Of a DNA stretch of 32,087 nt, positions 2,945 through 27,052 are shown piece by piece. Each line of letters opens with the position of its first letter. Positions within the stretch are counted from its first letter, which is position 1. This stretch comes from Candidatus Aminicenantota bacterium (GTDB lineage: Bacteria; Acidobacteriota; Aminicenantia; JAMOAD01). The notes below the pieces were generated by a model that was given only the letters and a program-made list of their open reading frames with translations, had not been told where the DNA came from and did no database searches. The stretch spans positions 1-32,087 of the forward strand of contig JAMOUT010000076.1 of assembly GCA_027061995.1 (NCBI GenBank), read 5' to 3'. The position numbers and the translations under genes are program-made.

Positions 2945-5161
2945 ATGAAGAAATTGAAAAAAATTTTAATCTTTTTTTTAATATTATTAGTTTTCCTTTT
3001 TATAGGGTTTGAATTATTTTTTGTCCTGCCTTACCCTTGGTATGCAGGGGAAAATCTGAAACTATACCCGGTTAAAACAAACAGATATGTAAATTATGAT
3101 ATTATGAAAAATCTTTCAAATGACTATTTTAAAAATAGTTATTACGGCAAAAGGTGGATTAGAAAAGATTATTATAAAAAGGGGTATAATATAAGTCTCG
3201 GTAAGTTTTTATGGCTTCTTGAAACAAGAAGGGGGATTCCCTCCGAACGACCCTTTTCTTTTGAATATACACCAACAAAAGATTCTGTTTTAATATTCGC
3301 AATCGGTGTTAATAAAAAACAATCTGAATTTAAGATATCGATTAATGATGAAATTGTATTTTATAAAAAACTGCTTCCTGCTCCGGATAAGAATTCCATT
3401 ATTTTTAATAAATTTTTAAAGGTTTTTTATTTTAAACTTTTTCCTCAAAAAGGGTATTGGAAGGATTATAAGATTGAGTTAAAGCAATGGGCAGGTAAAA
3501 AAGTAAAAATCAAGATGACAGGTGATGATGGTTTTTGGGGAAACCCCGTGATAACTGAAAAAAGGGGGAAAGAATTCAAACATCCCAATATTATTCTTAT
3601 CCAGATTGATGCTTTAAGAGCTGATCTTGTTAAAAACGGTTATCTTAAATTTATTAATGAGTTAAAAAATAACGGGGCTTTTTTTAATAATGCTTATAGT
3701 AATGCTAATTGGACAAGAGCATCCAATTATGTCCAATTTTACGCAAAAAGAAATTCCGAGTTGGGACTTTCAACAATAGATTTTTATCTTCATCCCATGG
3801 AAAAAAGATTTTTTTACCAAAACAGGTTCAAATCTTTACCTTTGTTTTTTGAAGAGAAAGGTTATAGGACAGCTGCATTTGTTGATAATGTATTTATACA
3901 CGGATTCACTGATTGGGGAGTTGATATCGGTTTTCAGCAGGTAATGGATTTTGAGAAAATGAAACATGAAGCTGTTTATATAACTGATGAAACAATAAAA
4001 TGGATTAAGAAAAACAGAGGGCAACCTTTTTTTCTTTTTCTGGATTATAATGTAACACATTTCCCGTATCATCCCCCTGTAAAATATATAAATTTAAATG
4101 AATTTATTAAGAATCCAGGGTTTGCTCTTTACAAAGCGTGTGCGAGATATACTGATGATTATGTCAAAAAACTGATTAAAACGATTGAGAAAGGTGGGGA
4201 CCTTGAAAATACAATTATAATTGTTAATGCTGATCATGGGGAAACTTTTTATAATGCAGGGAGAATAAAAACGGATTGGGATATGGAACCCGTTAAAGTA
4301 AAAGCGCATAGTTATTCATTATGGAGTGAGGAGATAAAGGTTCCCATACTTTTTTATTGGAAAAATAGGATAAAAAATATTAATAGTGATGAAAAGATAT
4401 CAATTATTGATATTCCTAAGACAATAGTAGGTTTATCAGGTTTCGACTCTCCGGAGGATTGGGGAGGTGAAAACATGTCCGAATATCTTCTCGGCAAGGT
4501 TGTTGCACATAAGGGGCATTCTATTATTATAGAGGGAAGAAATGAGATAGGGATAATAGAGGGGAATTATAAATATATAACCGGTTTTGATAATAGGAGA
4601 ATTGAAAATCTTTACGACATAAAAAAAGACCCTTTAAATAAAATTAATATTTTAGATAAATACCCCGCGAAAGCTAAAGAATTAAGAAAAAAGATATATG
4701 AGTTATATCCCTCTTATTATCCTGTGCTTGTTATTGATTTTGACTTAGGGGAAAAGGAGGGAATTATTGAATTTGATTCATTAAGTCAATTAAAATTTTT
4801 CGGAGGAGAAAACAAAGTAAATATTGATAATAATAGAATAGTTATTTATGGAAAAGGCAGCTTGTATTTTGTTTTTAAAAAATTCCCTTCTTCTATGAAA
4901 TTCAGGGGGGGAAAAGTAAGAGTAGGGGATGAACAGATTATTTTATCCGGGAAAGATTTAATAACCAATATTTTTATAAACAAACAAAACATCCCGTTAT
5001 TATTAAATCCGTATAATCAAAAATTAAGACAAATTAAAGGGTTTTGGTTATATATAACCGATGTTCTGAGTTTTGTCAGCTCTGAGCAAACGAATATAAA
5101 GAATGGAGCAGGGGAGGAGATGAAACAACTTTTAATTGATTGGGGATATGTGAAACAATGA
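2945..5161 (+). CDS. Membrane-anchored sulfatase-fold hydrolase/phosphotransferase with N-terminal beta domain
   Basis: This 738-residue protein has one N-terminal membrane anchor (about 7-28). A beta-sandwich-like region (about 103-205) ends in GFWGNPVITEK, a layout seen in large multidomain sulfatase-family proteins. The alkaline-phosphatase/sulfatase domain starts at IILIQIDALRAD (metal Asp about 222). It continues with the nucleophile region ANWTRAS (Thr about 257), THFPYH (about 371) and NADHGE (about 429-433). A C-terminal beta region ends in EEMKQLLIDWGYV, the usual sulfatase tail. No Cys or Ser sits in a C/S-x-P-x-R sulfatase signature, so formylglycine cannot form there and Thr would act directly, as in LtaS/EptA-type phosphotransferases. 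It is co-transcribed with and overlaps the second sulfatase-fold gene by 4 bp. The substrate is unknown. Confidence 0.82.
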   Translation: MKKLKKILIFFLILLVFLFIGFELFFVLPYPWYAGENLKLYPVKTNRYVNYDIMKNLSNDYFKNSYYGKRWIRKDYYKKGYNISLGKFLWLLETRRGIPSERPFSFEYTPTKDSVLIFAIGVNKKQSEFKISINDEIVFYKKLLPAPDKNSIIFNKFLKVFYFKLFPQKGYWKDYKIELKQWAGKKVKIKMTGDDGFWGNPVITEKRGKEFKHPNIILIQIDALRADLVKNGYLKFINELKNNGAFFNNAYSNANWTRASNYVQFYAKRNSELGLSTIDFYLHPMEKRFFYQNRFKSLPLFFEEKGYRTAAFVDNVFIHGFTDWGVDIGFQQVMDFEKMKHEAVYITDETIKWIKKNRGQPFFLFLDYNVTHFPYHPPVKYINLNEFIKNPGFALYKACARYTDDYVKKLIKTIEKGGDLENTIIIVNADHGETFYNAGRIKTDWDMEPVKVKAHSYSLWSEEIKVPILFYWKNRIKNINSDEKISIIDIPKTIVGLSGFDSPEDWGGENMSEYLLGKVVAHKGHSIIIEGRNEIGIIEGNYKYITGFDNRRIENLYDIKKDPLNKINILDKYPAKAKELRKKIYELYPSYYPVLVIDFDLGEKEGIIEFDSLSQLKFFGGENKVNIDNNRIVIYGKGSLYFVFKKFPSSMKFRGGKVRVGDEQIILSGKDLITNIFINKQNIPLLLNPYNQKLRQIKGFWLYITDVLSFVSSEQTNIKNGAGEEMKQLLIDWGYVKQ

Positions 5162-7236
5162 AAAAAAATTTTATTTTCTCTTTATTAACTTCTTTTACTA
5201 TTTTTATTATTTCAGTATTATTATATGCAAAATTCAGTTATATGGGTGTTTCTAATTCTGAAATTCAAAATTATATTATGAAACATTACAAAGGCTACAT
5301 ATTGGGATACAACCTTAAAATACTGTTTTATTATCTATTGATAGGTGGTTTTATCGCTGTTTTTTCAATATTTTTAAAGATTAAAAAAGTTAAAATAATA
5401 ATTTTGTTTAATCTTTTAATATGGGTATTTTTTTGGATTAGGGCAATTAAAATATATCCTCAGATGTTTGCGGAACAGCTTTTTTTAAAAGGCTGGATTT
5501 TAAAACATTTTCAGATATTTATAACTGATTTTCTTCCTTTATGGAGTGTTTATATTTTATTTGTTTCTGTTATAGTGTATATGGCGTATAAGAAAAAAAC
5601 TTATATGGGGGGTGGTTTAATATTATTTGTGCTTTTTTTAATTCTTTATCCTTATAAAGTGAGACCTTCAAAAAACAAAAGTAAAAGAGAAAGACCTAAC
5701 ATTTTGATTCTTGCATCCGATTCTTTGAGACCCGACCATATATCATACAATGGTTATAAGAGAAATACCCCGAATATTGATTATCTGTTTAAAAACGGAG
5801 TCAATTTTCTTAATTTGACAGCTTCAATGGGAAGAACCTTTCCGTCTTGGGTTAGTGTTTTAACTTCTCTTTACCCGCCTGATCATGGGATAAGACATAT
5901 GTTTCCGAATTTTGAGGTTAGGAAAAAAAGATGGATAACTCTCGTTGACATACTAAGAAAACAGGGGTATCTGACCGGAGTCATAAGTGATTTTGCTGGT
6001 GATATTTTCTCAAGAATTGATCTTGGTTTTCAATATGTTGATTCCCCGTATTTCTCAATAAACACTATGATAAAGCAAAGAAGTCTTGAAATTCACTACT
6101 TTTTTCTTTCATTTTTTCTCACACCTCAAGGAAAAAGGGTTTTTCCTGTTATGTATGAAATGGCTTTTGATCCTGATCCGTATTTACTAACACAAAAAAC
6201 GAAAATTAGAATAAAACAATCTGATAAAGAAAATAAACCTTTTTTCATATTAACATTTTATTCCTGCAATCATTTTCCCTATTCTCCAATGTATCCTTAC
6301 TATACTCTTTATACTGATAAAACATACAAGGGGGGGAACAAGTATAAAAAGGAGAATCTTTTATCAGGATACAATAACGGGAAAATAATGAAAAAAGACA
6401 AAGAACAGATTGTAGCTTTATATGATGGCGGGATAAGAATGTTTGATGATCAAGTGGGAGAGATTATTGATTACCTTAAAAAAAGTGATCTTTTAAGAAA
6501 TACAATTATAATTATTATGTCTGATCATGGAGAAAACCTGTATGAATACGGTTATGGAATGGGACACGGTGATCATTTGAGAGGAAATTTTGCAAATAGG
6601 ATGACATTCGGAATATATTCCCCTTTTGAACGATATAAAGGTAGAAAAATTAAACCTACCGCAAGAGATATAGATATTTCCCCCACAATACTTGATATGT
6701 TAAAGATTGAAAAACCAAAACAATTTAAAGGAGAATCATTATTGCCTTATATGAGAGGAAATCCTTATAATGGAATTCCGGTCTATATGGAAACAGGAGT
6801 ATGGTATACTAAAAATATCCCCGCAATACCAAATAGTTGCAGGTTCAAATATCCGCAGATTACCGAGCTTATGACGGTTGACAAGATAACAGGTGAAATT
6901 TATCTTAAAAACAGATATAAAAGGGTAATAATTAATTCAAAGCAAAGAGCCATATTAATGAATAGATACAAGTATATATATATGCCATGCGAAAATGGAG
7001 TTATTAATGAGATGTATAATGTAAAATATCCGCAAACTCCGTCATATAGAAATAAAATAAGATTAACCGGAGTTTTAACAAAGGATTTTATAAATAAAAT
7101 GATGAAGTATTTTCCTGATAAATTTCAATTGATAAATGGTAAATATATAATTGAAAAAAACAGTTTGCCCGATAATCTGAAAACAAAATTATTATTATAT
7201 GATTTAAGTAAAAGGTATATTAGTGATAATAATTAA
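5158..7236 (+). CDS. LtaS/EptA-architecture sulfatase-fold membrane phosphotransferase
   Basis: Starting at ATG 5158, which overlaps the upstream stop as ATGA, the protein has 692 residues. About five membrane segments (4-23, 52-73, 79-95, 127-143, 150-166) precede an extracytoplasmic sulfatase-fold domain. That domain begins at NILILASDSLRPD (metal Asp about 188). The nucleophile region is SMGRTFPSW with Thr about 227, and the DHGE metal motif lies near residue 455. Five membrane helices plus a Thr-nucleophile domain is the plan of lipoteichoic-acid synthase and phosphoethanolamine transferases, which move phospho-head groups from phospholipids to surface acceptors. Sequence alone does not identify donor or acceptor. 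A TTG 18 bp upstream is possible but less likely. Its stop shares TTAA with the convergent phosphatidyltransferase gene. Confidence 0.8.
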   Translation: MKKNFIFSLLTSFTIFIISVLLYAKFSYMGVSNSEIQNYIMKHYKGYILGYNLKILFYYLLIGGFIAVFSIFLKIKKVKIIILFNLLIWVFFWIRAIKIYPQMFAEQLFLKGWILKHFQIFITDFLPLWSVYILFVSVIVYMAYKKKTYMGGGLILFVLFLILYPYKVRPSKNKSKRERPNILILASDSLRPDHISYNGYKRNTPNIDYLFKNGVNFLNLTASMGRTFPSWVSVLTSLYPPDHGIRHMFPNFEVRKKRWITLVDILRKQGYLTGVISDFAGDIFSRIDLGFQYVDSPYFSINTMIKQRSLEIHYFFLSFFLTPQGKRVFPVMYEMAFDPDPYLLTQKTKIRIKQSDKENKPFFILTFYSCNHFPYSPMYPYYTLYTDKTYKGGNKYKKENLLSGYNNGKIMKKDKEQIVALYDGGIRMFDDQVGEIIDYLKKSDLLRNTIIIIMSDHGENLYEYGYGMGHGDHLRGNFANRMTFGIYSPFERYKGRKIKPTARDIDISPTILDMLKIEKPKQFKGESLLPYMRGNPYNGIPVYMETGVWYTKNIPAIPNSCRFKYPQITELMTVDKITGEIYLKNRYKRVIINSKQRAILMNRYKYIYMPCENGVINEMYNVKYPQTPSYRNKIRLTGVLTKDFINKMMKYFPDKFQLINGKYIIEKNSLPDNLKTKLLLYDLSKRYISDNN

Positions 7237-7850
7237 TCTTTTAAAACTTTCTTTCCGTAAAGTATTCTTTGAACTGCCGTTATATTTGCTCCTATCCCTA
7301 TAAGAAGAATCCCATAGAAAAGAATCCGCTGATCAAACACGGAGAGTATGGAGAAAGAAACGAAAAGGGTGAGCCTTTCGAGTCTTTGAATTAACCCCAC
7401 TTTACATTCTTCCCCGAGACTTTCTATTTTAGCCCTTGTATAAGAGGTCAATACAGAGCCTAAAAGGTAAAAAAGAGCTATAAAAGAGAACTCAGGTTTC
7501 CCTGTTTTATTAAAATAATAGATTAAGCCGGCAAGTTGAAAAATTTCAACATATCTATCAGCCGTTGAATCAAGAAGAGAGCCGAATTTACTTCCTCTAT
7601 CATATCTTTTTGCAACCAGACCGTCGAAAACATCAAATAAGCCTGAGATTATAAGTAAAATCCCCCCGAATAAGAAAAATCCTTGAGAGAAGAGGTAAGC
7701 GCTACCGAGTGAAATAATTATCCCTATGATAGTAAGAGTATCCGGTTGTGATTTTAATGTTTCAGCAAATAATTTTAGAAACAATTCTCTAAAAAAAACA
7801 AGCCCATTATTAATCAGATTATAAAAAAAATTGTTTTTCAAAATATTCAA
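7233..7850 (-). CDS. CDP-alcohol phosphatidyltransferase, probable phosphatidylinositol-phosphate synthase
   Basis: This 205-residue integral membrane protein carries the CDP-alcohol phosphotransferase motif D-x2-D-G-x2-A-[K]-x8-G-x3-D-x3-D at residues 73-98. The usual Arg after Ala is Lys (Lys81). The four Asp residues that bind metal and the CDP-lipid are all present. PDTLTIIG before the first core helix is also typical. It lies just downstream of inositol-phosphate synthase, so the likely reaction joins CDP-diacylglycerol with myo-inositol 1-phosphate. Phosphatidylglycerol-phosphate synthase or a di-myo-inositol-phosphate enzyme are alternatives, but no cytidylyltransferase partner is nearby. 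The start appears to be TTG at 7850, without a strong ribosome binding site. It is the last gene of the tetR-led operon. Confidence 0.8.
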   Translation of the reverse strand: MNILKNNFFYNLINNGLVFFRELFLKLFAETLKSQPDTLTIIGIIISLGSAYLFSQGFFLFGGILLIISGLFDVFDGLVAKRYDRGSKFGSLLDSTADRYVEIFQLAGLIYYFNKTGKPEFSFIALFYLLGSVLTSYTRAKIESLGEECKVGLIQRLERLTLFVSFSILSVFDQRILFYGILLIGIGANITAVQRILYGKKVLKD

Positions 7851-7874
7851 TGTATTATCCCGTTTTATATTTTA

Positions 7875-7901
7875 AAGAGAGGGGATTCATCCCCCTCTCT
7901 T
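7875..7901. terminator. Perfect 10-bp hairpin between ino1 and the phosphatidyltransferase gene
   Basis: AAGAGAGGGG (7875-7884) pairs with CCCCTCTCTT (7892-7901) around a 7-nt loop. It lies 6 nt past the ino1 stop. On the minus strand only a short TTTAAAAT follows, so termination would be partial at best. An intrinsic attenuator or an mRNA 3'-end stabiliser inside the operon is plausible. Confidence 0.55.
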
Positions 7902-7907
7902 ATTAAA

Positions 7908-8999
7908 CTATTTTGAGTATTTTTTTATAAAATCTTCCGTCAATTGTTTTGCCTTGTGGTCATCATATTGAATGGGAGGTGATTTCATTAAAAAGGAGGC
8001 GGGTCCTTCTAGAGTTCCCGATATCCCGTTGTTTTTTGCGAGTTTTATTAATCTGACAGCATCTATGATTATTCCAGCGGAATTGGGAGAATCTTCAACT
8101 GATAGCCTGCATTCCAAGTTCATAGGGACATCTCCGAAATGTTTACCTTCAATTCTAAGATAGCATACTTTATTATCTTTAAGCCATGGAACATAATCCG
8201 ACGGACCGACATGAACATTATCAGCATCAAGTTCTATACCTCTGTTTTTTAATTGGGATGTTACAGCATTTGTTTTTGATATTTTTTTTGAATCCAATCT
8301 CTCCCTTTCAAGCATATTTAAAAAATCGGTATTGCCTCCGACATTTAATTGATATGTTCTATCTATGAGCATGCCTCTGTCCATAAAAAGGTTAACAAGG
8401 GTTCTATGAAGTATTGTCGCACCTACTTGAGATTTTATGTCGTCTCCTATAATGGGTTGTCCGTATTCTTTGAATCTATCCTGCCAATATTTTTCTCTTG
8501 CTATGAATACGGGAATTGCGTTTACCATCCCGGCTCCGGCTTCAAGTATCTGTTCAACATACCATTTGGTTGCCATTTCGGAACCGACCGGAAGATAATT
8601 GATAACAACATCGGCTCCTGAATCCTTTATAACTTTTGCCACATCCGCGGTTGAACCGGGAGCTTTTTTTATGACTCCTGCAAGGTATTTACCGATTCCA
8701 TCATGTGTCATTCCTCTATGAACCTTTACATTAAGATTAGGAACCTCGGAAAATTTAGTCGTATTGTTAGGATTAGCAAAAATTGCTTCGGAAAGATCTT
8801 TTCCTACTTTTGTTTCATTAATATCAAAAGCTGCAACAAACTCAATATCCGAGATATGATACCCTCCGAGATTCACATGCATTAAACCGGGAACGAACTC
8901 ATCCTCTTTAGCATTTTTATAATATTCAACACCTTGAACCAAAGATGATGCACAATTACCGACTCCGATAATTGCAACTCTTACTTTATCCTTTACCAT
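7908..8999 (-). CDS. ino1: Inositol-3-phosphate synthase (myo-inositol-1-phosphate synthase)
   Basis: This 363-residue cytosolic enzyme would convert glucose 6-phosphate to inositol 3-phosphate using NAD. The N-terminal Rossmann motif is [16 protein letters not shown] (residues 8-23). Family motifs follow, including [26 protein letters not shown] and GPSDYVPWL. Length and sequence resemble the short actinobacterial/archaeal type rather than the roughly 500-residue eukaryotic type. A strong AGGAGGT precedes ATG 8999, and the upstream MCE gene ends 8 bp before. Its position with a CDP-alcohol phosphatidyltransferase supports inositol phospholipid synthesis; its position behind lipid-transport genes suggests the product is an envelope lipid. 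Confidence 0.93.
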
Positions 9000-9007
9000 A
9001 ATACCTC

Positions 9008-9886
9008 CTAAAATAATGATAATTTTACATATTTTTTCGGGTGTTTTTTAACATCCGCAATTAATTTCTTTAATTCTTCTATTGTTTCATTGAGATTCTC
9101 AATATATTTTTTATCATTTAAAAATTTTCCTGCGCTACCTTCACCTCTATTTATTTTATCTGAAATACTGTCTAATTTGTCTGTTAAAGAAGTTAGAGAA
9201 TTTATTAATTTATCCATTTTTTCAAAAGATTCTCTTCCCTTTTTAGTTGTTAATAAGAGTTCTTTTTTGCTCTCTTTTAAAAATTCTGATAAATTATCTC
9301 CTGCTGTTCCGATTTTATCAATCTGTTTATTGTATTTTGAAATATTCACTTTATCCAATTTAGTATTGATTTTATTAAGTGATGAATACAAAAGATCAAT
9401 TGCTTTGGAAAGTTTTCCCATCTTTGATTCAAAACCACCCTTATCTATTTTACCCTTTATCGTATCCATAATCTCTTTTGCTTGAATCATAAGATCTCTG
9501 TTAGTCCCTTTGACTCTGTCTCCGGCAGTCAGATATTTATTTGATTTCCCCGGATTTATTGTGATTGCTTTTTCCCCCATAAAATTTAGTGTGTTAATTT
9601 CAAAGACCGAATCGGCAGGGATCTTATATCTCTTTTTAATATCAACCCTTACAAGAACTCCGTCTTTTTCAAATTTAACCCCTTTTGTCCATCCCACTCT
9701 GTAACCTCTCATAAAAACCTGAGAATGATCTCTCATCCCTATAATATTGTTAAATTTAATAAAAATTTTGTAATCGTTAGTGAAAAATATTCTTTTATCC
9801 GCAAGCCAAAGTATTGAAACAAGAATCAGTATAAAACTGACAAAAATAACTATTCCCGAAATAAAACTCATTTTTTTATATTTCAT
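9008..9886 (-). CDS. MCE-domain lipid-binding protein (MlaD-like)
   Basis: The 292-residue protein has one N-terminal membrane anchor (about 8-29). A single MCE domain follows (about 38-115), with the typical [20 protein letters not shown] and [13 protein letters not shown] segments. The C-terminal part (about 130-280) is a long coiled coil of charged heptads. MCE proteins form hexameric rings that carry phospholipids across the periplasm, fed by an MlaE/MlaF pump. The start at 9886 is set by AGGAG upstream and overlaps the ATPase gene by 11 bp. The coiled coil is longer than in enterobacterial MlaD (about 180 residues) and is closer to PqiB/LetB- or Mce-style proteins that build a tunnel. 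Confidence 0.88.
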
Positions 9887-10607
9887 ATGTATCTCCTATT
9901 GAATATAGATATTCTAATGTTTCATCCGAAATTTCCTTTTTTTTGCCTATGAAAAATATTTTCCCTTCTTTTAAAAGGGCGACTCTATCCGACACCTTTT
10001 CCATTAACTCAATATCATGAGTGACTATTATGGATGTTGCGGATATTTTATCTTTTAAGACCTCAATTAATTCACTTACTAATTGTGCATTTTTTTTATC
10101 AAGCCCTGTAGTAGGTTCATCATAAAAGATATATTTCGGTTCTTTTATCATTGCCCTTGCAATAGCCACCCTTTTTTTCATCCCTCCGCTAAGTTCTTCA
10201 GGGAATTTTTCAAGGATGTCATCCGTTAGTCCAACAAAAGATAGAGCTTGTCTGATTCTATCGTCTATATCATCATTTTTCATTTTTTTATGCATTCTTA
10301 GAAAAAGAGCCAAGTTTTCCCTGACATCCAAAAAATCAAAAAGAGCGCTGTTTTGGAAAACATATGCTATATGTTTTCTAAAATTTTCAAGCTCCCGTTT
10401 TTTGAGTTTCGTAATATCTTCACTATCAAAGTAGATTTCTCCGGCATCAGGTTTTATAAGTCTTATCATGGATTTTATCAAAACGGTTTTTCCCTGGCCG
10501 CTCGGACCTAAGATAACCATTGTTTCATTATCCATAATATCTATATAAACCCCTTTTAAAACCTGTTTATCATCAAATTGCTTTTTTAATCCTTGAACTT
10601 TTATCAT
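9876..10607 (-). CDS. ABC transporter ATPase of MCE lipid transporter (MlaF-like)
   Basis: The 243-residue ATPase has Walker A GPSGQGKT (about 34-41), signature LSGGMKKRVAIARA, Walker B YIFYDEPTTGLD and H-loop IIVTHD. LSGGM in place of LSGGQ is characteristic of the MlaF/TtgA group. It pairs with the MlaE-like permease encoded 4 bp upstream (ATGA overlap) and powers lipid movement through the MCE protein encoded just downstream. All catalytic motifs are intact. The direction of transport (toward or from the outer membrane) cannot be decided from sequence. Confidence 0.9.
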   Translation of the reverse strand: MIKVQGLKKQFDDKQVLKGVYIDIMDNETMVILGPSGQGKTVLIKSMIRLIKPDAGEIYFDSEDITKLKKRELENFRKHIAYVFQNSALFDFLDVRENLALFLRMHKKMKNDDIDDRIRQALSFVGLTDDILEKFPEELSGGMKKRVAIARAMIKEPKYIFYDEPTTGLDKKNAQLVSELIEVLKDKISATSIIVTHDIELMEKVSDRVALLKEGKIFFIGKKKEISDETLEYLYSIGDTYEI

Positions 10608-11386
10608 AGCAATAGTTCTCCCAAATAATAATCAAAAATGACAATCATGATTGCGGAAACAACAACGGCAAGTGTGGATGATTCTCCGACACCTTTGGCT
10701 CCACCCTTTGTTCTTAATCCGAAATAACTTCCTATAAGAGCTATGAAGAAACCGTAAACAGAGGGCTTTATAATACAACCGTAAATTATTTCAAAACTTT
10801 TGTAATCCATCTTGAGCCCATTTATAAATTCATGAGCGGTAACCCATTGACTTATTGCGGTTGAAACAAAAAAAGAGCTGAAGATGGCAAGAAAATTGGC
10901 AAAAATGGTGATAACGGGGAGCATTATAAGTCCTGCTATTACCCTGGGCATAACAAGAAAACCAACAGGGTCCAACGACATTGTTTCAAGTGCTTCAACC
11001 TGTTCGGAAATTTTCATGCTCCCAATCTCAGCCGCAAGAGACGCTCCGAGTTTTCCTGCAAGAACAAGTGCTAAAATTACCGGTGAAAGTTCGATAACAG
11101 TGCTTTTAAAAATAACATTAACAACAACATACCTCGGTATAAGACTTGAGGATTGATAATTTCCTTGAACTGTTGAGCCGAGTCCGACAAATATTGATAT
11201 TATTGCCGCAATAGGTAGTGTTTTGGCGGAAAAATTATACAATTGTTCAACAAGCTGTCTTCTGTAAAACCAAATCTTGGGAATAGCTTTTAAAGAATCT
11301 ATGAAGAGGATGAATATTTCATAAATCATTGTGAAAAAGTTGATTCCTTTATCACCGAGATCTTCAAAAAAGTTTTTCTTAATCAT
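10604..11386 (-). CDS. MlaE-family ABC permease
   Basis: This 260-residue protein has about five to six membrane segments. It carries the MlaE/YrbE signature around residues 100-150: LALVLAGKLGASLAAEIG, then MKISEQVEALETMSLDP and PRVIAG. The later motif YFGLRTKGGAKGVGESST is the other conserved cytoplasmic loop. The permease forms the membrane part of an MCE lipid transporter with the two genes downstream. It overlaps the TetR gene upstream and the ATPase gene downstream by 4 bp each, so the whole set is one translationally coupled message. Confidence 0.9.
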   Translation of the reverse strand: MIKKNFFEDLGDKGINFFTMIYEIFILFIDSLKAIPKIWFYRRQLVEQLYNFSAKTLPIAAIISIFVGLGSTVQGNYQSSSLIPRYVVVNVIFKSTVIELSPVILALVLAGKLGASLAAEIGSMKISEQVEALETMSLDPVGFLVMPRVIAGLIMLPVITIFANFLAIFSSFFVSTAISQWVTAHEFINGLKMDYKSFEIIYGCIIKPSVYGFFIALIGSYFGLRTKGGAKGVGESSTLAVVVSAIMIVIFDYYLGELLL

Positions 11387-14786: not shown

Positions 14787-15941
14787 ATGAGTAAAAAAAC
14801 CATACCTATATTTCTTGTTTTTTTGATTATGGGTTTCGGCGATGCTGTAGGTCCGTTTGTGGGGCTTGCTAAAAATGAATTCCATTTGAGTAATACACTT
14901 GCTTTTATTATTCCGTTTCTCGGATTTTTGATGTTCGGATTATTATCTGTTCCTATGGGTATTTATCAGGATAGAAAAGGGAAAAAGTTTATCCTTGAAT
15001 TAGGATTAATCATAGCTCTTCTCGGATTAATAATCCCTATTTTCGGATTGAATTCTTTCCCAAAATTTCTTTTAACGGTTTTATTGCTCGGAATCGGAGC
15101 AACCATTCTGCAAGTTGCTGGAAATCCGATAATGAGAGATGTCTCTGAAGAGGGGAAATACTCGAGGAATCTTTCTCTGGGGCAGTTTGTTAAAGCGATA
15201 GGTTCTTTATCGGGGCCTATTATCCCTGTTATAGCTGCAAGATATTTTAATGCTGATTGGAGAGTCATGTTTCCCATATACAGCTTTTTTATATTAATAA
15301 CAATTATAAGTGTGGCCTCTTTAAAAATAGAGGAGAAAAAAGATGATAATCAAAAGCCAGCAACCATTAAATCATGTTTATCACTTCTTAAAAACAGATA
15401 TGTTTTAATGATGGTCCTCGGTATTTTCCTTTATGTTGGGGCAGAGGTAAGTATAAGTTCCGGTATTCCGGTTCATCTTAAATCAAGGTTCGGTATGGAT
15501 ATTCAAAAACTCGGACTTCTCGGCACAGGTTTATTTTTCACCGCTCTTGTTGCGGGAAGGTTTTTGGGAGGGGTTATTTTAAATTGGATTAAAGCGGAGA
15601 AGTTTTTTATTATAACCTCTTTTATCTCGATAATCTCTCTTATGGGGCTCTTTACCGGGATAAAACTTATCGTTATTATAAGTGTGGTATTTATCGGACT
15701 TGGATTTGCAAATATATTTCCTTTGATATTTTCCATTACGATTGAGAGGATGCCGGAGAAAACGAATGAACTTTCCGGTTTGATGATTACCGCAATAGTG
15801 GGGGGGGCGATACTTCCCCCGGTAATGGGATTTTTATCCGATATATTTTCGACAACGACAGGTTTTCTTGTTCCTGTTCTTGCCATTCTTTATATTTTAT
15901 GGCTTGCTCTGAGTAATAAAAACAGGGAGGTGAAAGTATAA
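14787..15941 (+). CDS. MFS sugar transporter (FucP/GluP-like)
   Basis: This 384-residue protein has about 12 membrane segments. Features of the fucose/glucose-galactose MFS group are visible: GIYQDRKGKKF in loop 2-3, and ILQVAGNPIMRD in helix 4, which matches the QxaxNP motif of FucP-like carriers. The second half has GRFLGGVIL. It probably imports a sugar by proton symport. It is followed without a gap by a ROK-family kinase (stop 15939-15941, next ATG 15942), suggesting uptake and phosphorylation of the same hexose or amino sugar. The specific sugar is unknown. Confidence 0.85.
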   Translation: MSKKTIPIFLVFLIMGFGDAVGPFVGLAKNEFHLSNTLAFIIPFLGFLMFGLLSVPMGIYQDRKGKKFILELGLIIALLGLIIPIFGLNSFPKFLLTVLLLGIGATILQVAGNPIMRDVSEEGKYSRNLSLGQFVKAIGSLSGPIIPVIAARYFNADWRVMFPIYSFFILITIISVASLKIEEKKDDNQKPATIKSCLSLLKNRYVLMMVLGIFLYVGAEVSISSGIPVHLKSRFGMDIQKLGLLGTGLFFTALVAGRFLGGVILNWIKAEKFFIITSFISIISLMGLFTGIKLIVIISVVFIGLGFANIFPLIFSITIERMPEKTNELSGLMITAIVGGAILPPVMGFLSDIFSTTTGFLVPVLAILYILWLALSNKNREVKV

Positions 15942-17042
15942 ATGGATTATAGTGAAGATAAAAGAGTTGTTCTTACTCTTGATGCGGGAGGAACCAACTT
16001 TGTTTTTTCAGCGATTCAAGGGAATAATGAGATAGTTGAAAAAGTAAGATTTGATTCAAACGGAGACAATCTTGAGAAATCATTAAATTCAATAATAAAG
16101 GGATTTGAGACAATAACCGAGCAATTAAGAGAGAAACCCGTAGCTATAAGTTTTGCTTTTCCGGGGCCTGCAGATTATCATCTCGGAATTATAGGAGACC
16201 TTGGGAACCTTCCCTCATACAGAGGGGGAGTTGCTTTAAAACAGATGCTTGAAGACAGGTTTAAAATACCTGTGTTTATAAATAATGACGGTAATCTTTT
16301 TGTCTTGGGTGAAGCTATAGCGGGTTTTTTACCCTATATAAACGGATTACTCGAAAAAGCGGGTTCTCCCAAAAGATATGAAACTCTTTTCGGAATTACG
16401 CTCGGGACTGGTTTTGGCGGCGGGTTTGTCAGTAATGGAAAACTTCTCATAGGTGATAATTCAAATGCTGCGGAAGTATGGCTGTTGAGAAATAAACTTG
16501 AAAGAGAGATGAATGCCGAAGAGAGTGTGAGTATAAGGGGGATAAAAAGATTTTATTCACAAGAGAGTGGAATTTCTTTTAAAGAAACACCTGAACCGAT
16601 TGATATATATGAAATCGCAACAGGTAAGAAAAAAGGGGATAAAGAGGCTGCTATAAAAGCTTTTAAAAGATTCGGGGAAATTATAGGGGATGCACTTTCA
16701 AATGCTGTTACTTTATTTGATTCACCCGTGGTTATAGGGGGAGGCCTTTCGGGAGCATATTCTCTGTTTTTACCTGAAATTATGAAGGAGATGAATTCTG
16801 TGTTTCATGTTTATGAGGGGCAAAAAATAGATAGGTTGGAAGCAAAAGTTTTTAATATAGAGGATGGTAAAGATAGAGAAAATTTCGTTAAGGGGGAGGT
16901 GAGAAAGATAAAAGTTCCTTTTAGCGAAAAAACAATTGAATATGACCCTTTAAAAAGAATATGCGTAGGTCTTTCAAAACTCGGGACGACAAAAGCGGTA
17001 TCTATCGGAGCTTATGCTTTTGCTTTGGATATGTTGGGATAG
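15942..17042 (+). CDS. ROK-family sugar kinase lacking the zinc-binding cysteine motif
   Basis: This 366-residue ROK kinase has phosphate loop 1 LDAGGTN (13-19), FAFPGPAD (71-78), the catalytic Asp in INNDGN (Asp116), GITLGTGFGGGFVSNGKL (a glycine-rich ATP/sugar loop) and VVIGGGLSG. In most ROK proteins a CxCGxxGC zinc site follows the glycine-rich loop. Here that region reads DNSNAAEVWLLRNK and has no cysteines. It is also longer than typical ROK glucokinases (about 300-320 residues), with an insertion before the C-terminus. The start has GGAGGTGA about 9 nt upstream inside the transporter gene. It probably phosphorylates the sugar imported by that transporter. Confidence 0.85.
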   Translation: MDYSEDKRVVLTLDAGGTNFVFSAIQGNNEIVEKVRFDSNGDNLEKSLNSIIKGFETITEQLREKPVAISFAFPGPADYHLGIIGDLGNLPSYRGGVALKQMLEDRFKIPVFINNDGNLFVLGEAIAGFLPYINGLLEKAGSPKRYETLFGITLGTGFGGGFVSNGKLLIGDNSNAAEVWLLRNKLEREMNAEESVSIRGIKRFYSQESGISFKETPEPIDIYEIATGKKKGDKEAAIKAFKRFGEIIGDALSNAVTLFDSPVVIGGGLSGAYSLFLPEIMKEMNSVFHVYEGQKIDRLEAKVFNIEDGKDRENFVKGEVRKIKVPFSEKTIEYDPLKRICVGLSKLGTTKAVSIGAYAFALDMLG

Positions 17043-17044
17043 AA

Positions 17045-17956
17045 TCATATCAATATTTTAAGAGCTTTCGGTAAAACGGTTAATTTTAACGGAGTTTGTT
17101 TTAAAACTTCCCCGTCAGCCATTAGCAATAATTGAGGTTCGGAGTCAATCTCTATTTCAGAAGCTTTTATATGTTTTACCTTTTTGTGATTCATGTGTGA
17201 ACCTTTGAAAACACCTGCAAATATCTTTATTATGTCTATTCTTGAAACTTCATTGAATATTACGATATCAACTTTACCATCTTGAGTATCCGACAGGGGA
17301 GAGATTTTCATCTTGCCACCCGTATATTTTGAATTGGAGATAACCATTGCACTATTTTTTAATTCAATGAATTTTTTATCGTATCTCATGTTTATTTTAT
17401 TTTTTAATCCTTTGAATATATGTGTAATGACTGAGACACTATAACCTAATTCACCCATAAATTTTAATCTCTCATTCGTTAATTTTAAAATGTCTGCTAT
17501 AAGTCCCACTCCGAGTATATTTAGATAATATTTCCTTTTTTTTTCTTTCCCTTTACCATACTCTATCTCAACCACATCTACGAGGCGGGTTTTACCTATT
17601 TTGATTCTATCTATAATCTTTTTATAATCGATATCAATGAAATCTCTCAAAAAAGAGTTCCCTGTTCCCGCGGGAATAATCCCAAGCTCAATACTACCAA
17701 GCTCCTCCCTGCTCTTTATTCCGTTTAGAACTTCATAAGGGGTTCCGTCTCCTCCTATCGTAAGTATTCTTTTAAAACCATTGTTAATTGCATTTCTGCT
17801 GATTTTAGATATATGTCCTCTGTATTCGGATATTACTATCTCAATATTCTTAAATTTTTCTTTTAAAAGAGAATGGATAATATCAAAATTTTTCTTGCCT
17901 TGTCCTTTTCCCGCTGCAGGATTTAAGATCAACAAGATTTTATCATCTTTTTCCAT
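17045..17956 (-). CDS. Diacylglycerol-kinase-type lipid kinase (YegS/DgkB family)
   Basis: The 303-residue protein has the DAGK catalytic domain: ILNPAAGKGQGKK (10-22), TIGGDGTPYEVLNGI (66-80) with the GGDGT ATP site at 68-72, and GIIPAGTGNSFLRD. The C-terminal beta domain includes SPLSDTQDGKVDIVI and MADGEVL. Members phosphorylate diacylglycerol or related lipids at the inner membrane, returning them to phosphatidate and then CDP-diacylglycerol. That fits the inositol-lipid genes in the window, though it is a separate transcript. It is convergent with the ROK gene with only 2 bp between stops. There is no Shine-Dalgarno sequence; the promoter abuts the ATG. Confidence 0.9.
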   Translation of the reverse strand: MEKDDKILLILNPAAGKGQGKKNFDIIHSLLKEKFKNIEIVISEYRGHISKISRNAINNGFKRILTIGGDGTPYEVLNGIKSREELGSIELGIIPAGTGNSFLRDFIDIDYKKIIDRIKIGKTRLVDVVEIEYGKGKEKKRKYYLNILGVGLIADILKLTNERLKFMGELGYSVSVITHIFKGLKNKINMRYDKKFIELKNSAMVISNSKYTGGKMKISPLSDTQDGKVDIVIFNEVSRIDIIKIFAGVFKGSHMNHKKVKHIKASEIEIDSEPQLLLMADGEVLKQTPLKLTVLPKALKILI

Positions 17957-25186: not shown

Positions 25187-27052
25187 ATGTTAAGCTATTT
25201 TATGAAGGATTCTAATGAAAAAATAAAACATATCGCAAAGATTGTATTAATAATAGCTTCCGTAATATTTACTCTCCACCTTTTATTATTTAATTATACT
25301 ATTATTGTTCTTCTTCCTTTAATAAAAGCTTTTTATATTATTATTGAGATGTATTTGATAGGGTATTTAATATTATATAAATTAAGTAGGCAGGAAAAAA
25401 CAATAATTGAATATATAGGTGTAGGACTTATTTTCACGAGTTTCTTTTTTTATATATTCTCTTTTTTTAAGTTTCTTAATATTATAGCTTTTTTAATCTA
25501 TTTTATTATACCGGTTATAATTTTTAGTGTTTTAAGAAAAGATGATGAATTAAAGGAAAAACTGATTAAAATAACTGTAAACTTTATGAATAGGAATCCT
25601 CTTGAATATCTTGTTCTAATTTTCCCTTTTATTTATGCTTCTCTTCCTCCTACATTTTATGATTCTCTTGTATATCATCTCGGTATTCCAAACCTTTATA
25701 TTCAAAACGGGGGTTTTTTTCAAACCCCTTTCATGGTTTACTCAAACACTTCTATCTATTATGAGTTGTCATTGATCCCCTCGGTATTTACGAGTAATAT
25801 TACTCCGAGATTATTTCATTTTATATTAGCAGTTCTGTTCATCTTATGTTTTGTTGATTATTTTGAAAAAAAATATGAACTTAAAAAGAAATCTTATCTT
25901 CTGATAACAATTTTCTCTATTCCGACTACAATGTTTTTAATGACAACGGTTAAAAATGATATTATTGCAGCTCTGTTCATATTCATGGGAGTTAAAGCGT
26001 ATCTTGAAAATGACAGGATACTTTCGGCTGTTTTTTTCGGCTTTTCAATTGGAGTTAAATATTTTAGTGTTTTACCGATTATAATTTTTATTTTTATAGA
26101 GATAATAAAAAACGGAAAATTGGAGATTAAAAAACATGTTATGATTTTTTTAATGGTTTTTTTTATGCTTATTCCATTGTTCGTAAAAAATTATATCTAT
26201 GTGGGAAATCCTGTCTTTCCTTTTTTCAGCAAGTATTTTCATGCTGAAAATTGGGATAACTCAAGGATGCAAATCATGAAAAGAGATGTTGGGCAAATGT
26301 TTCATAATATAAAGGATTTTATAAGATCTCCTTATGATATCTCCTTTAAAAATTATGGTTCGGGAGGTAGAATAGGACCTGTTTTTTTAATATTTTTACC
26401 TTTTTTAACGATTTGGGGAGTAAAAAAACTGGATATTCTTATATTTGCTCTGTTAACTATTTTTATAGGGGGATGGTTTACGGGAAGTATAAGGTTTATG
26501 TATATAGGGATTATAATAGCTGTCCCATTTGTTATTATAGCCCTTGAAAAGCTTGATAACAGATTGATGAAAACCATCTTTTTAATAATAATAGGTATGA
26601 ATTTCATAAATTCATTTTCTATATTGGAAAGGATCTATGATTCAAATAGTTTGTATTCGGGAGAATTCTCCATATATGAATATAAAGTAAAACATTTCCC
26701 GGCATACAGAATCTATTCATTTATTAATAAGATGATAAGACAAGGAAAGACGATACTTATTGTGGGTGAGGCAAGAAGTTTTTATTTGAAAAAAAGATAT
26801 ACCGTAGCATCCGCAATTGATTATTCCATATTAAAACCATATATTGATAATAGTAAAAATAGTGCTGATTTTATAAGTTTACTTAAAAAAGACGGATATG
26901 ATTTCATGTTTATTAATTTTTATGAATTTGAAAAACTTCAAAAGAAATACAATAGACTAAGTGATATTGAAATAAAAAAAATGTACTCTATTTTGAGGAG
27001 GATAAAACCTGTTTTTCATAAAGAAGGGATGTTTTTGTATAAAATAAAATAA
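25187..27052 (+). CDS. GT-C membrane glycosyltransferase-like protein (GT39/ArnT-like), copy 1
   Basis: The 621-residue protein has about 11-12 membrane segments and a C-terminal soluble tail. PTFYDSLVYHLGIPNLYIQ (about 150-170) carries the acidic residue in the first large loop, where polyprenyl-phosphate-sugar-dependent GT-C enzymes have their catalytic Asp. VGNPVFPFF is also family-like. Such enzymes transfer a sugar from a polyprenyl carrier to a surface glycan, lipid or protein. It is a paralogue of the 609-residue protein at 29188-31017; both share GEARSFYLKKR/GEDRSFYIKKR. No Shine-Dalgarno sequence precedes ATG 25187 (a second ATG is at 25202). Acceptor and sugar are unknown. Confidence 0.72.
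   Translation: MLSYFMKDSNEKIKHIAKIVLIIASVIFTLHLLLFNYTIIVLLPLIKAFYIIIEMYLIGYLILYKLSRQEKTIIEYIGVGLIFTSFFFYIFSFFKFLNIIAFLIYFIIPVIIFSVLRKDDELKEKLIKITVNFMNRNPLEYLVLIFPFIYASLPPTFYDSLVYHLGIPNLYIQNGGFFQTPFMVYSNTSIYYELSLIPSVFTSNITPRLFHFILAVLFILCFVDYFEKKYELKKKSYLLITIFSIPTTMFLMTTVKNDIIAALFIFMGVKAYLENDRILSAVFFGFSIGVKYFSVLPIIIFIFIEIIKNGKLEIKKHVMIFLMVFFMLIPLFVKNYIYVGNPVFPFFSKYFHAENWDNSRMQIMKRDVGQMFHNIKDFIRSPYDISFKNYGSGGRIGPVFLIFLPFLTIWGVKKLDILIFALLTIFIGGWFTGSIRFMYIGIIIAVPFVIIALEKLDNRLMKTIFLIIIGMNFINSFSILERIYDSNSLYSGEFSIYEYKVKHFPAYRIYSFINKMIRQGKTILIVGEARSFYLKKRYTVASAIDYSILKPYIDNSKNSADFISLLKKDGYDFMFINFYEFEKLQKKYNRLSDIEIKKMYSILRRIKPVFHKEGMFLYKIK

Follow-up and report, generated by a model that had tools for sequence, protein, structure and literature searches.

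A co-inherited pair of threonine-type sulfatase-fold proteins in Aminicenantes and other bacteria, with a candidate role in lipopolysaccharide decoration

Two overlapping forward-strand genes in a 32,087-nucleotide contig from a Candidatus Aminicenantota bacterium (JAMOUT010000076.1; the whole stretch is referred to as the window) encode membrane-anchored proteins of the alkaline-phosphatase superfamily, here named P1 (2945..5161, 738 aa) and P2 (5158..7236, 692 aa counted from the ATG at 5158). P1 and P2 form an old, co-inherited and widely spread pair, which extends to Spirochaetes, Myxococcales/Deltaproteobacteria, Oligoflexales and Elusimicrobia and of which no description was found in the PubMed Central open subset. 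With moderate confidence, the pair is proposed to be a two-enzyme module that puts a phospho-linked group onto the core of lipopolysaccharide (LPS) or a similar glycolipid. Tandem sulfatase-fold open reading frames (ORFs) at 2945-7236 had been recognized in an earlier reading of the sequence alone (the sequence-only reading), and these positions were correct, with matches to the Pfam Sulfatase family (PF00884, cut-off 25) of 108 bits for P1 and 128 bits for P2. Both proteins thus belong to the alkaline-phosphatase-superfamily fold by this measure. The host assembly (2.36 Mb, 95% complete) has 11 PF00884 matches.

P1 consists of a single N-terminal transmembrane (TM) helix, a beta-rich N-terminal region (residues ~47-206) and a Thr-type alkaline-phosphatase-superfamily domain (~214-589), and its C-terminal tail ends in WGYVKQ (window 5140-5161). 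A search with the N-terminal fragment of P1 gave no Pfam match. P2 carries five N-terminal hydrophobic helices followed by a Thr-type domain (~178-545), and an RTFPSW-like signature is a feature of its family. Hydropathy analysis found five N-terminal segments in P2 and one in P1, so the five-TM arrangement of the LtaS/EptA type is present in P2 alone. The AlphaFold2 model of P2 (predicted local distance difference test (pLDDT) score 89.3, predicted template modelling (pTM) score 0.92) contains helices that agree with the hydropathy; the P1 model scored 81.2 and 0.86, respectively. The P2 ORF as listed begins at a TTG at 5140, which makes T227 counted from the ATG equivalent to Thr233 in the TTG-started ORF. 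The true start is very probably the ATG at 5158, because it overlaps the P1 stop codon as ATGA (5158..5161, +), an overlap that makes translational coupling likely. Two other Aminicenantes genomes, G002 and G011, carry the full tandem, and both show this overlap.

The metal-site motifs of the superfamily that had been noted from the sequence, comprising Asp, Thr, His and an Asp-His pair, are present in both proteins. In P2, residues D188, T227, H372, D456, H457 and H470 are invariant in 51/51 family rows. In P1 the residues are D222, T257, H372, D430, H431 and H455; across the 24 rows of its family, H372, D430 and H431 are invariant and D222 and T257 are at least 90% conserved. The threonines that had been placed at about 257 and 227 proved exact (P2 numbered from the ATG at 5158), and share one column of a 120-sequence alignment, in which formylglycine (FGly) sulfatases have Cys or Ser. 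That column holds Thr in 52/52 P2 sequences and in 22/24 P1 partners, the other two having Ser. Thr as an unusual feature was rejected, since 41/44 other PF00884-type proteins compared (mostly of the same class) also have it. According to passages of PMC5066984, Thr occupies this position in 30/59 sequences of the Pfam Sulfatase seed, and formation of formylglycine from Thr has never been shown. Neither FGly signature, PS00523 (C/S-x-P-x-R, pattern as published in the same passages) nor PS00149 (G-Y-x-T...G-K-x-H), matched any of the 120 sequences, including 52 P2 and 24 P1-family proteins; a looser version of signature II gave chance matches in 4 P2, 6 P1 and 10 other sequences, with none for the full published patterns. 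An FGly-dependent sulfatase was rejected on these grounds, as both signatures are unmatched in the 76 P1/P2-family sequences. The order and spacing of the P2 residues fit those of EptA, MCR-1 and LtaS as listed in a section of PMC7576196 (for instance, H457-H470 of P2 are 13 residues apart and H453-H465 of EptA 12), so the Thr nucleophile, Asp/Glu, Asp-His and further His of LtaS/EptA-type enzymes are found by alignment and spacing rather than by superposition. Both P1 and P2 therefore appear, from their aligned residues, to keep a phosphotransferase-type site.

The catalytic domains were placed by structural comparison, with figures taken from among the best 50 matches listed. The top match among those listed was the S1 sulfatase 6hr5 for both P2 (Z 35.2, 353 residues, 2.9 Å) and P1 (Z 39.3, 336 residues, 2.3 Å), with phosphonate monoester hydrolases (PMHs) close behind in both lists; the P2 alignments begin at about residue 177. 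PbgA/YejM (6xlp) aligned with P2 at Z 31.0 (322 residues, 3.0 Å) and with P1 at Z 32.2 (316 residues, 2.9 Å). LtaS and EptA were not among the 50 matches listed, an absence that was not counted as evidence. Profile searches of solved structures agree, giving S1 sulfatase and PMH neighbours for both proteins. Because the best structural and profile matches are S1 sulfatases and PMHs, the models and alignments suggest that the catalytic domains belong to the sulfatase/PMH branch of the superfamily and not to the LtaS/EptA branch, joined in P2 to a five-TM module. The LtaS/EptA plan that the sequence-only reading ascribed to P2 consequently holds for the topology, with its five segments and model helices, but not for the catalytic domain. 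Scores against family models were low: P1 reached 22 bits with the LtaS model NF053595 (cut-off 970), for which P2 was unlisted at E 0.1, and P2 reached 25 bits over a C-terminal stretch only with the phosphoethanolamine transferase model NF028537 (cut-off 500) and 15 bits with the OpgB phosphoglycerol transferase I model NF009027 (cut-off 572). The PbgA/YejM model (cut-off 825) gave 26 bits for P1 and 16 bits for P2. P2 also matches Phosphodiest (PF01663) at 55 bits, the best stretch spanning the nucleophile region.

A scan with a P2 profile yielded 80 loci, about 50 of them true P2 relatives with 25-52% identity to the window P2, from Aminicenantes, Spirochaetes, Myxococcales/Deltaproteobacteria, Oligoflexales, KSB1, Elusimicrobia and others; the closest come mostly from metagenome-assembled genomes of Candidatus Aminicenantes or Acidobacteria. 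A second PF00884-type gene adjoins 24/53 P2 ORFs on the same strand, in many cases with an overlap of 1-4 bases, as compared to 2/28 background loci with a called ORF (of 29) from the same scan. Locus L135 also has such a gene, and lies outside the count owing to the overlap limit. The partners resemble P1; the one on L127, an Elusimicrobia contig, aligns at 27% over 742 aa (E 8e-44). In a phylogenetic tree, 52/52 P2 sequences form one clade (support 0.965), and 24/24 partners fall within a 29-member clade (0.927), two of whose five further members are P1 copies or fragments. P1 comes first in Aminicenantes, L136 and L142 and second in most others, and the adjacency persists. P1 and P2 distances are correlated (r=0.795, 24 pairs), a value reached by 0/5000 permutations. 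Outside Aminicenantes, a P1-family protein is encoded elsewhere in 10/12 P2-only genomes searched (E at or below 1e-100), with none found in the KSB1 and Akkermansiaceae genomes among the 12. A C-terminal WGY tail marks 20/24 partners, 0/52 P2 and 1/44 other proteins, the last being a P1 fragment, and may be a docking element. The tail (for example, window 5140-5161 and L127 near 12400) resembles an LGY-type motif matched in 35/44 background sulfatases. At L130 (10353-15055, -), a second P2 precedes two ORFs that together make up a split P1, the result of gene breakage or of faulty assembly; the first P2 adjoins on the other strand.

The context that points to LPS was found in a search of 247 genomes of the Elusimicrobia phylum, 7 of which have P2. 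A P1-family protein adjoins P2 in 7/7 of these genomes from Elusimicrobia and phylum-mates, with a 231-aa ORF in between in one. In 5/7 the genes form an operon of SecF, KdtA, DUF374 and GT9 (glycosyltransferase (GT) family) genes, P2 and P1, with a GT4 gene downstream in 4/5. On L127 the pair lies between heptosyltransferase-family genes, downstream of KdtA, with GT4 downstream; Pfam matches identified an O-antigen ligase nearby in L218 and L220 and LpxK in L218. The P2 proteins of the other four operon genomes are ~45-48% identical to that of L127, and the arrangement is therefore old. Between KdtA and P2, loci L218-L221 encode a DUF374-GT9 fusion protein of 555-566 aa, the two being separate genes in L127. 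The LPS-core operon of L127 closes with the gene for a third PF00884 protein (15669-17627; 652 aa, domain 290-561). Elsewhere, P2 of the KSB1 locus L118 lies among GT9, GT4, GT2 and ABC exporter genes, and at five loci in Aminicenantes the gene immediately before P2 is of GT4 type, as would suit a glycan acceptor without naming one. In a survey of 142 genomes of the class, in which a P2 match needed an E of 1e-150 or lower (six genomes with weaker matches, 1e-55 to 1e-67, were left out of the P2 count), KdtA was present in 18/19 genomes with P2 vs 75/123 without (p=0.003). Since LpxC, KdtA and three GT9 genes are present in the host of the window, it is probably able to produce lipid A carrying Kdo. 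Five of the P2 genomes (G002, G031, G044, G050 and G137) gave no LpxC match.

In the mechanism we infer for catalysis, donor, acceptor and division of labour, P2 and P1 would act as a co-inherited module at the inner membrane. A phospho-linked head group, whose source is probably a phospholipid of the membrane, would be loaded onto Thr227 in the extracytoplasmic domain of P2 to give a phospho-Thr227 intermediate. On the periplasmic side P2 would then pass the group to a glycan with a lipid anchor, the LPS core or lipid A being the most likely acceptor. P1, held by its one-helix anchor, would act on this product too with its own Thr-type site, in a second transfer at another site or in trimming or recycling. 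EptA and EptC are precedents for the transfer of phospho-groups onto LPS. P2 is like EptA, EptC and MCR, which transfer phosphoethanolamine to lipid A or the core, in its five TM helices, Thr nucleophile, Asp-His pair with two further His and LPS as presumed acceptor, but is far below the NF028537 cut-off and comes paired with P1. The lipoteichoic acid synthase LtaS and primase LtaP likewise have five TM helices and an extracytoplasmic Thr-nucleophile domain, and offer a two-enzyme precedent in the portion of PMC4192460 that treats them; P1, in contrast, has one TM helix, the catalytic domain sits closer to S1 sulfatases and PMHs, and the LtaS model cut-off is missed. That the pair is the diderm equivalent of LtaP and LtaS, drawn from the sulfatase/PMH branch, with one protein priming and the other extending or repeating phospho-polyol transfer on the LPS core, is an improbable extension of the proposal; if true, LPS in several uncultured phyla would bear a phosphodiester decoration resembling teichoic acid.

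Several observations weigh against LPS modification by the pair. Outside Elusimicrobia and phylum-mates, the one KSB1 locus is alone in having an LPS context, and P1 genes unlinked to P2 showed no shared LPS context. A GT (three HMMs) lies within 3 kb at 7 of the first 51 P2 loci vs 2/29 background loci, no clear difference, and a tally of neighbours outside Aminicenantes (97/112 proteins) was headed by MaoC (6), GT9 (3) and SpoIIE (3), with no common pathway. The KdtA association is weak, because within f1/f4/f5, the three families holding P2, it falls to p=0.21. Shared species history accounts for part of the P1/P2 distance correlation, and Ser replaces Thr in the two P1 partners noted above. 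Most P2-bearing Aminicenantes have no P1 orthologue; P2 can therefore act without P1 and seems to be the core part. Also on this side stand an ATP sulfurylase gene close to the pair in G002, a weak match to a sulfotransferase close to it in G011, and the fact that the fold and sequence neighbours of P1 and P2 are hydrolases.

The last point gives rise to the main rival, in which P1 and P2 are periplasmic phosphodiesterases or phosphatases (PMH/NPP-like, with a Thr nucleophile) that remove or recycle phospho-substituents or hydrolyse phosphodiesters. This is unlikely. In its favour, besides the nearest solved structures and sequences, the PF01663 match covers the nucleophile region of P2, and YejM, a five-TM relative, is reported as a phosphatase in a section of PMC7576196. 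However, a transferase suits a membrane module of five helices, and gene positions flanked by heptosyltransferase and O-antigen ligase, better than a scavenging hydrolase does. The same relative suggests a catalytically silent, regulatory pair, with P2 sensing inner-membrane LPS as PbgA/YejM does and P1 as its partner. PbgA/YejM indeed has a five-TM module, a sulfatase-fold periplasmic domain tied to LPS and a structural Z of ~31 to P2, but P2 keeps the Asp-His pair, model scores are far below the cut-off, and a complete metal and nucleophile site that is invariant in P2, and nearly so in P1, makes such a silent role improbable. Least probable of all are true sulfatases that desulfate a glycan. 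The S1 FGly sulfatases and PMHs (S1_0) are nearest in catalytic-domain fold and sequence, and sulfur-activation genes lie near the pair in two genomes, G002 and G011; P2 nevertheless differs from them in its Thr nucleophile, membrane module and want of an FGly signature, and Thr is not known to yield formylglycine (PMC5066984, in the passages cited). The sequence-only reading had allowed that a best match to sulfohydrolases with a sulfate pocket would speak against its assignment. The objection holds by half: sulfohydrolases and PMHs are the best structural matches, but both signatures and the formylglycine position are absent. Its proposed transferase acting on a surface acceptor is supported by the phosphotransferase-type site, the missing FGly signatures and the Elusimicrobia LPS-core operons, though not with phosphoinositol as the group transferred.

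That version, in which phosphoinositol passes from an inositol phospholipid of the adjacent operon to a surface acceptor, is very unlikely. P2 does end against a convergent mlaEFD-ino1-CDP-alcohol phosphotransferase operon, as had been noticed, the P2 and phosphotransferase gene ends overlapping by 4 bases. Both nearest genes, judged outside the system, are on the reverse strand: the CDP-alcohol phosphotransferase (7233..7850; archaetidylinositol-phosphate/PIP-synthase-like, below curated cut-offs), a convergent neighbour, and the inositol-3-phosphate synthase Ino1 (7908..8999). Of 60 relatives, 12 have P2 orthologues (E below 1e-100), 2 have full-length P1 orthologues, with P1 fragments besides, and 29 have Ino1. 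Four genomes of the same family (G001, G003, G004 and G002) keep ino1 and the phosphotransferase gene with mla genes and without adjoining P1 or P2; in G002 the P1-P2 tandem sits on a different contig. Across the 142 genomes of the class, Ino1 was present in 11/19 P2-positive vs 78/123 P2-negative genomes (p=0.80), and 8/19 P2-bearing genomes were without it. In the flanks of the other P2 loci compared there was no Ino1 homologue and a phosphotransferase homologue in one, L141. Neighbourhood, co-occurrence and flanks all led to rejection of an inositol donor as a conserved link: none of the other genomes examined has the adjacency, which appears accidental. The conserved association with inositol-lipid genes on which the sequence-only reading was staked was not recovered in relatives. 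The mlaE-mlaF-mlaD-ino1-PIPS order itself (window 7233-11386, -) is common to G004 and G002 and partly visible at contig ends in G001 and G003 (L098, L100, L097 and L099), and because family members share it, it suggests that Mla-type lipid transport and the making of inositol lipids are coupled.

Many PF00884 proteins of uncultured bacteria that are annotated as sulfatases carry Thr, which is not known to form formylglycine. For one such Thr-type group the P1-P2 pair supplies a candidate role, LPS-core decoration, together with a diagnostic WGY tail on P1 and a lineage, Elusimicrobia and phylum-mates, in which the genes lie in an LPS operon. The design of five TM helices with an alkaline-phosphatase domain may have arisen more than once. 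At L088, L089, L093 and L086, P2 of Aminicenantes family f5 (genus g7) adjoins a proteasome/HslV-like gene, with an AAA_2 (HslU/ClpX-like) gene in some and no obvious link. In the A+T-richer right part of the window (G+C ~0.23-0.29), a 621-aa ORF without a Pfam match occupies 25187-27052 (+).

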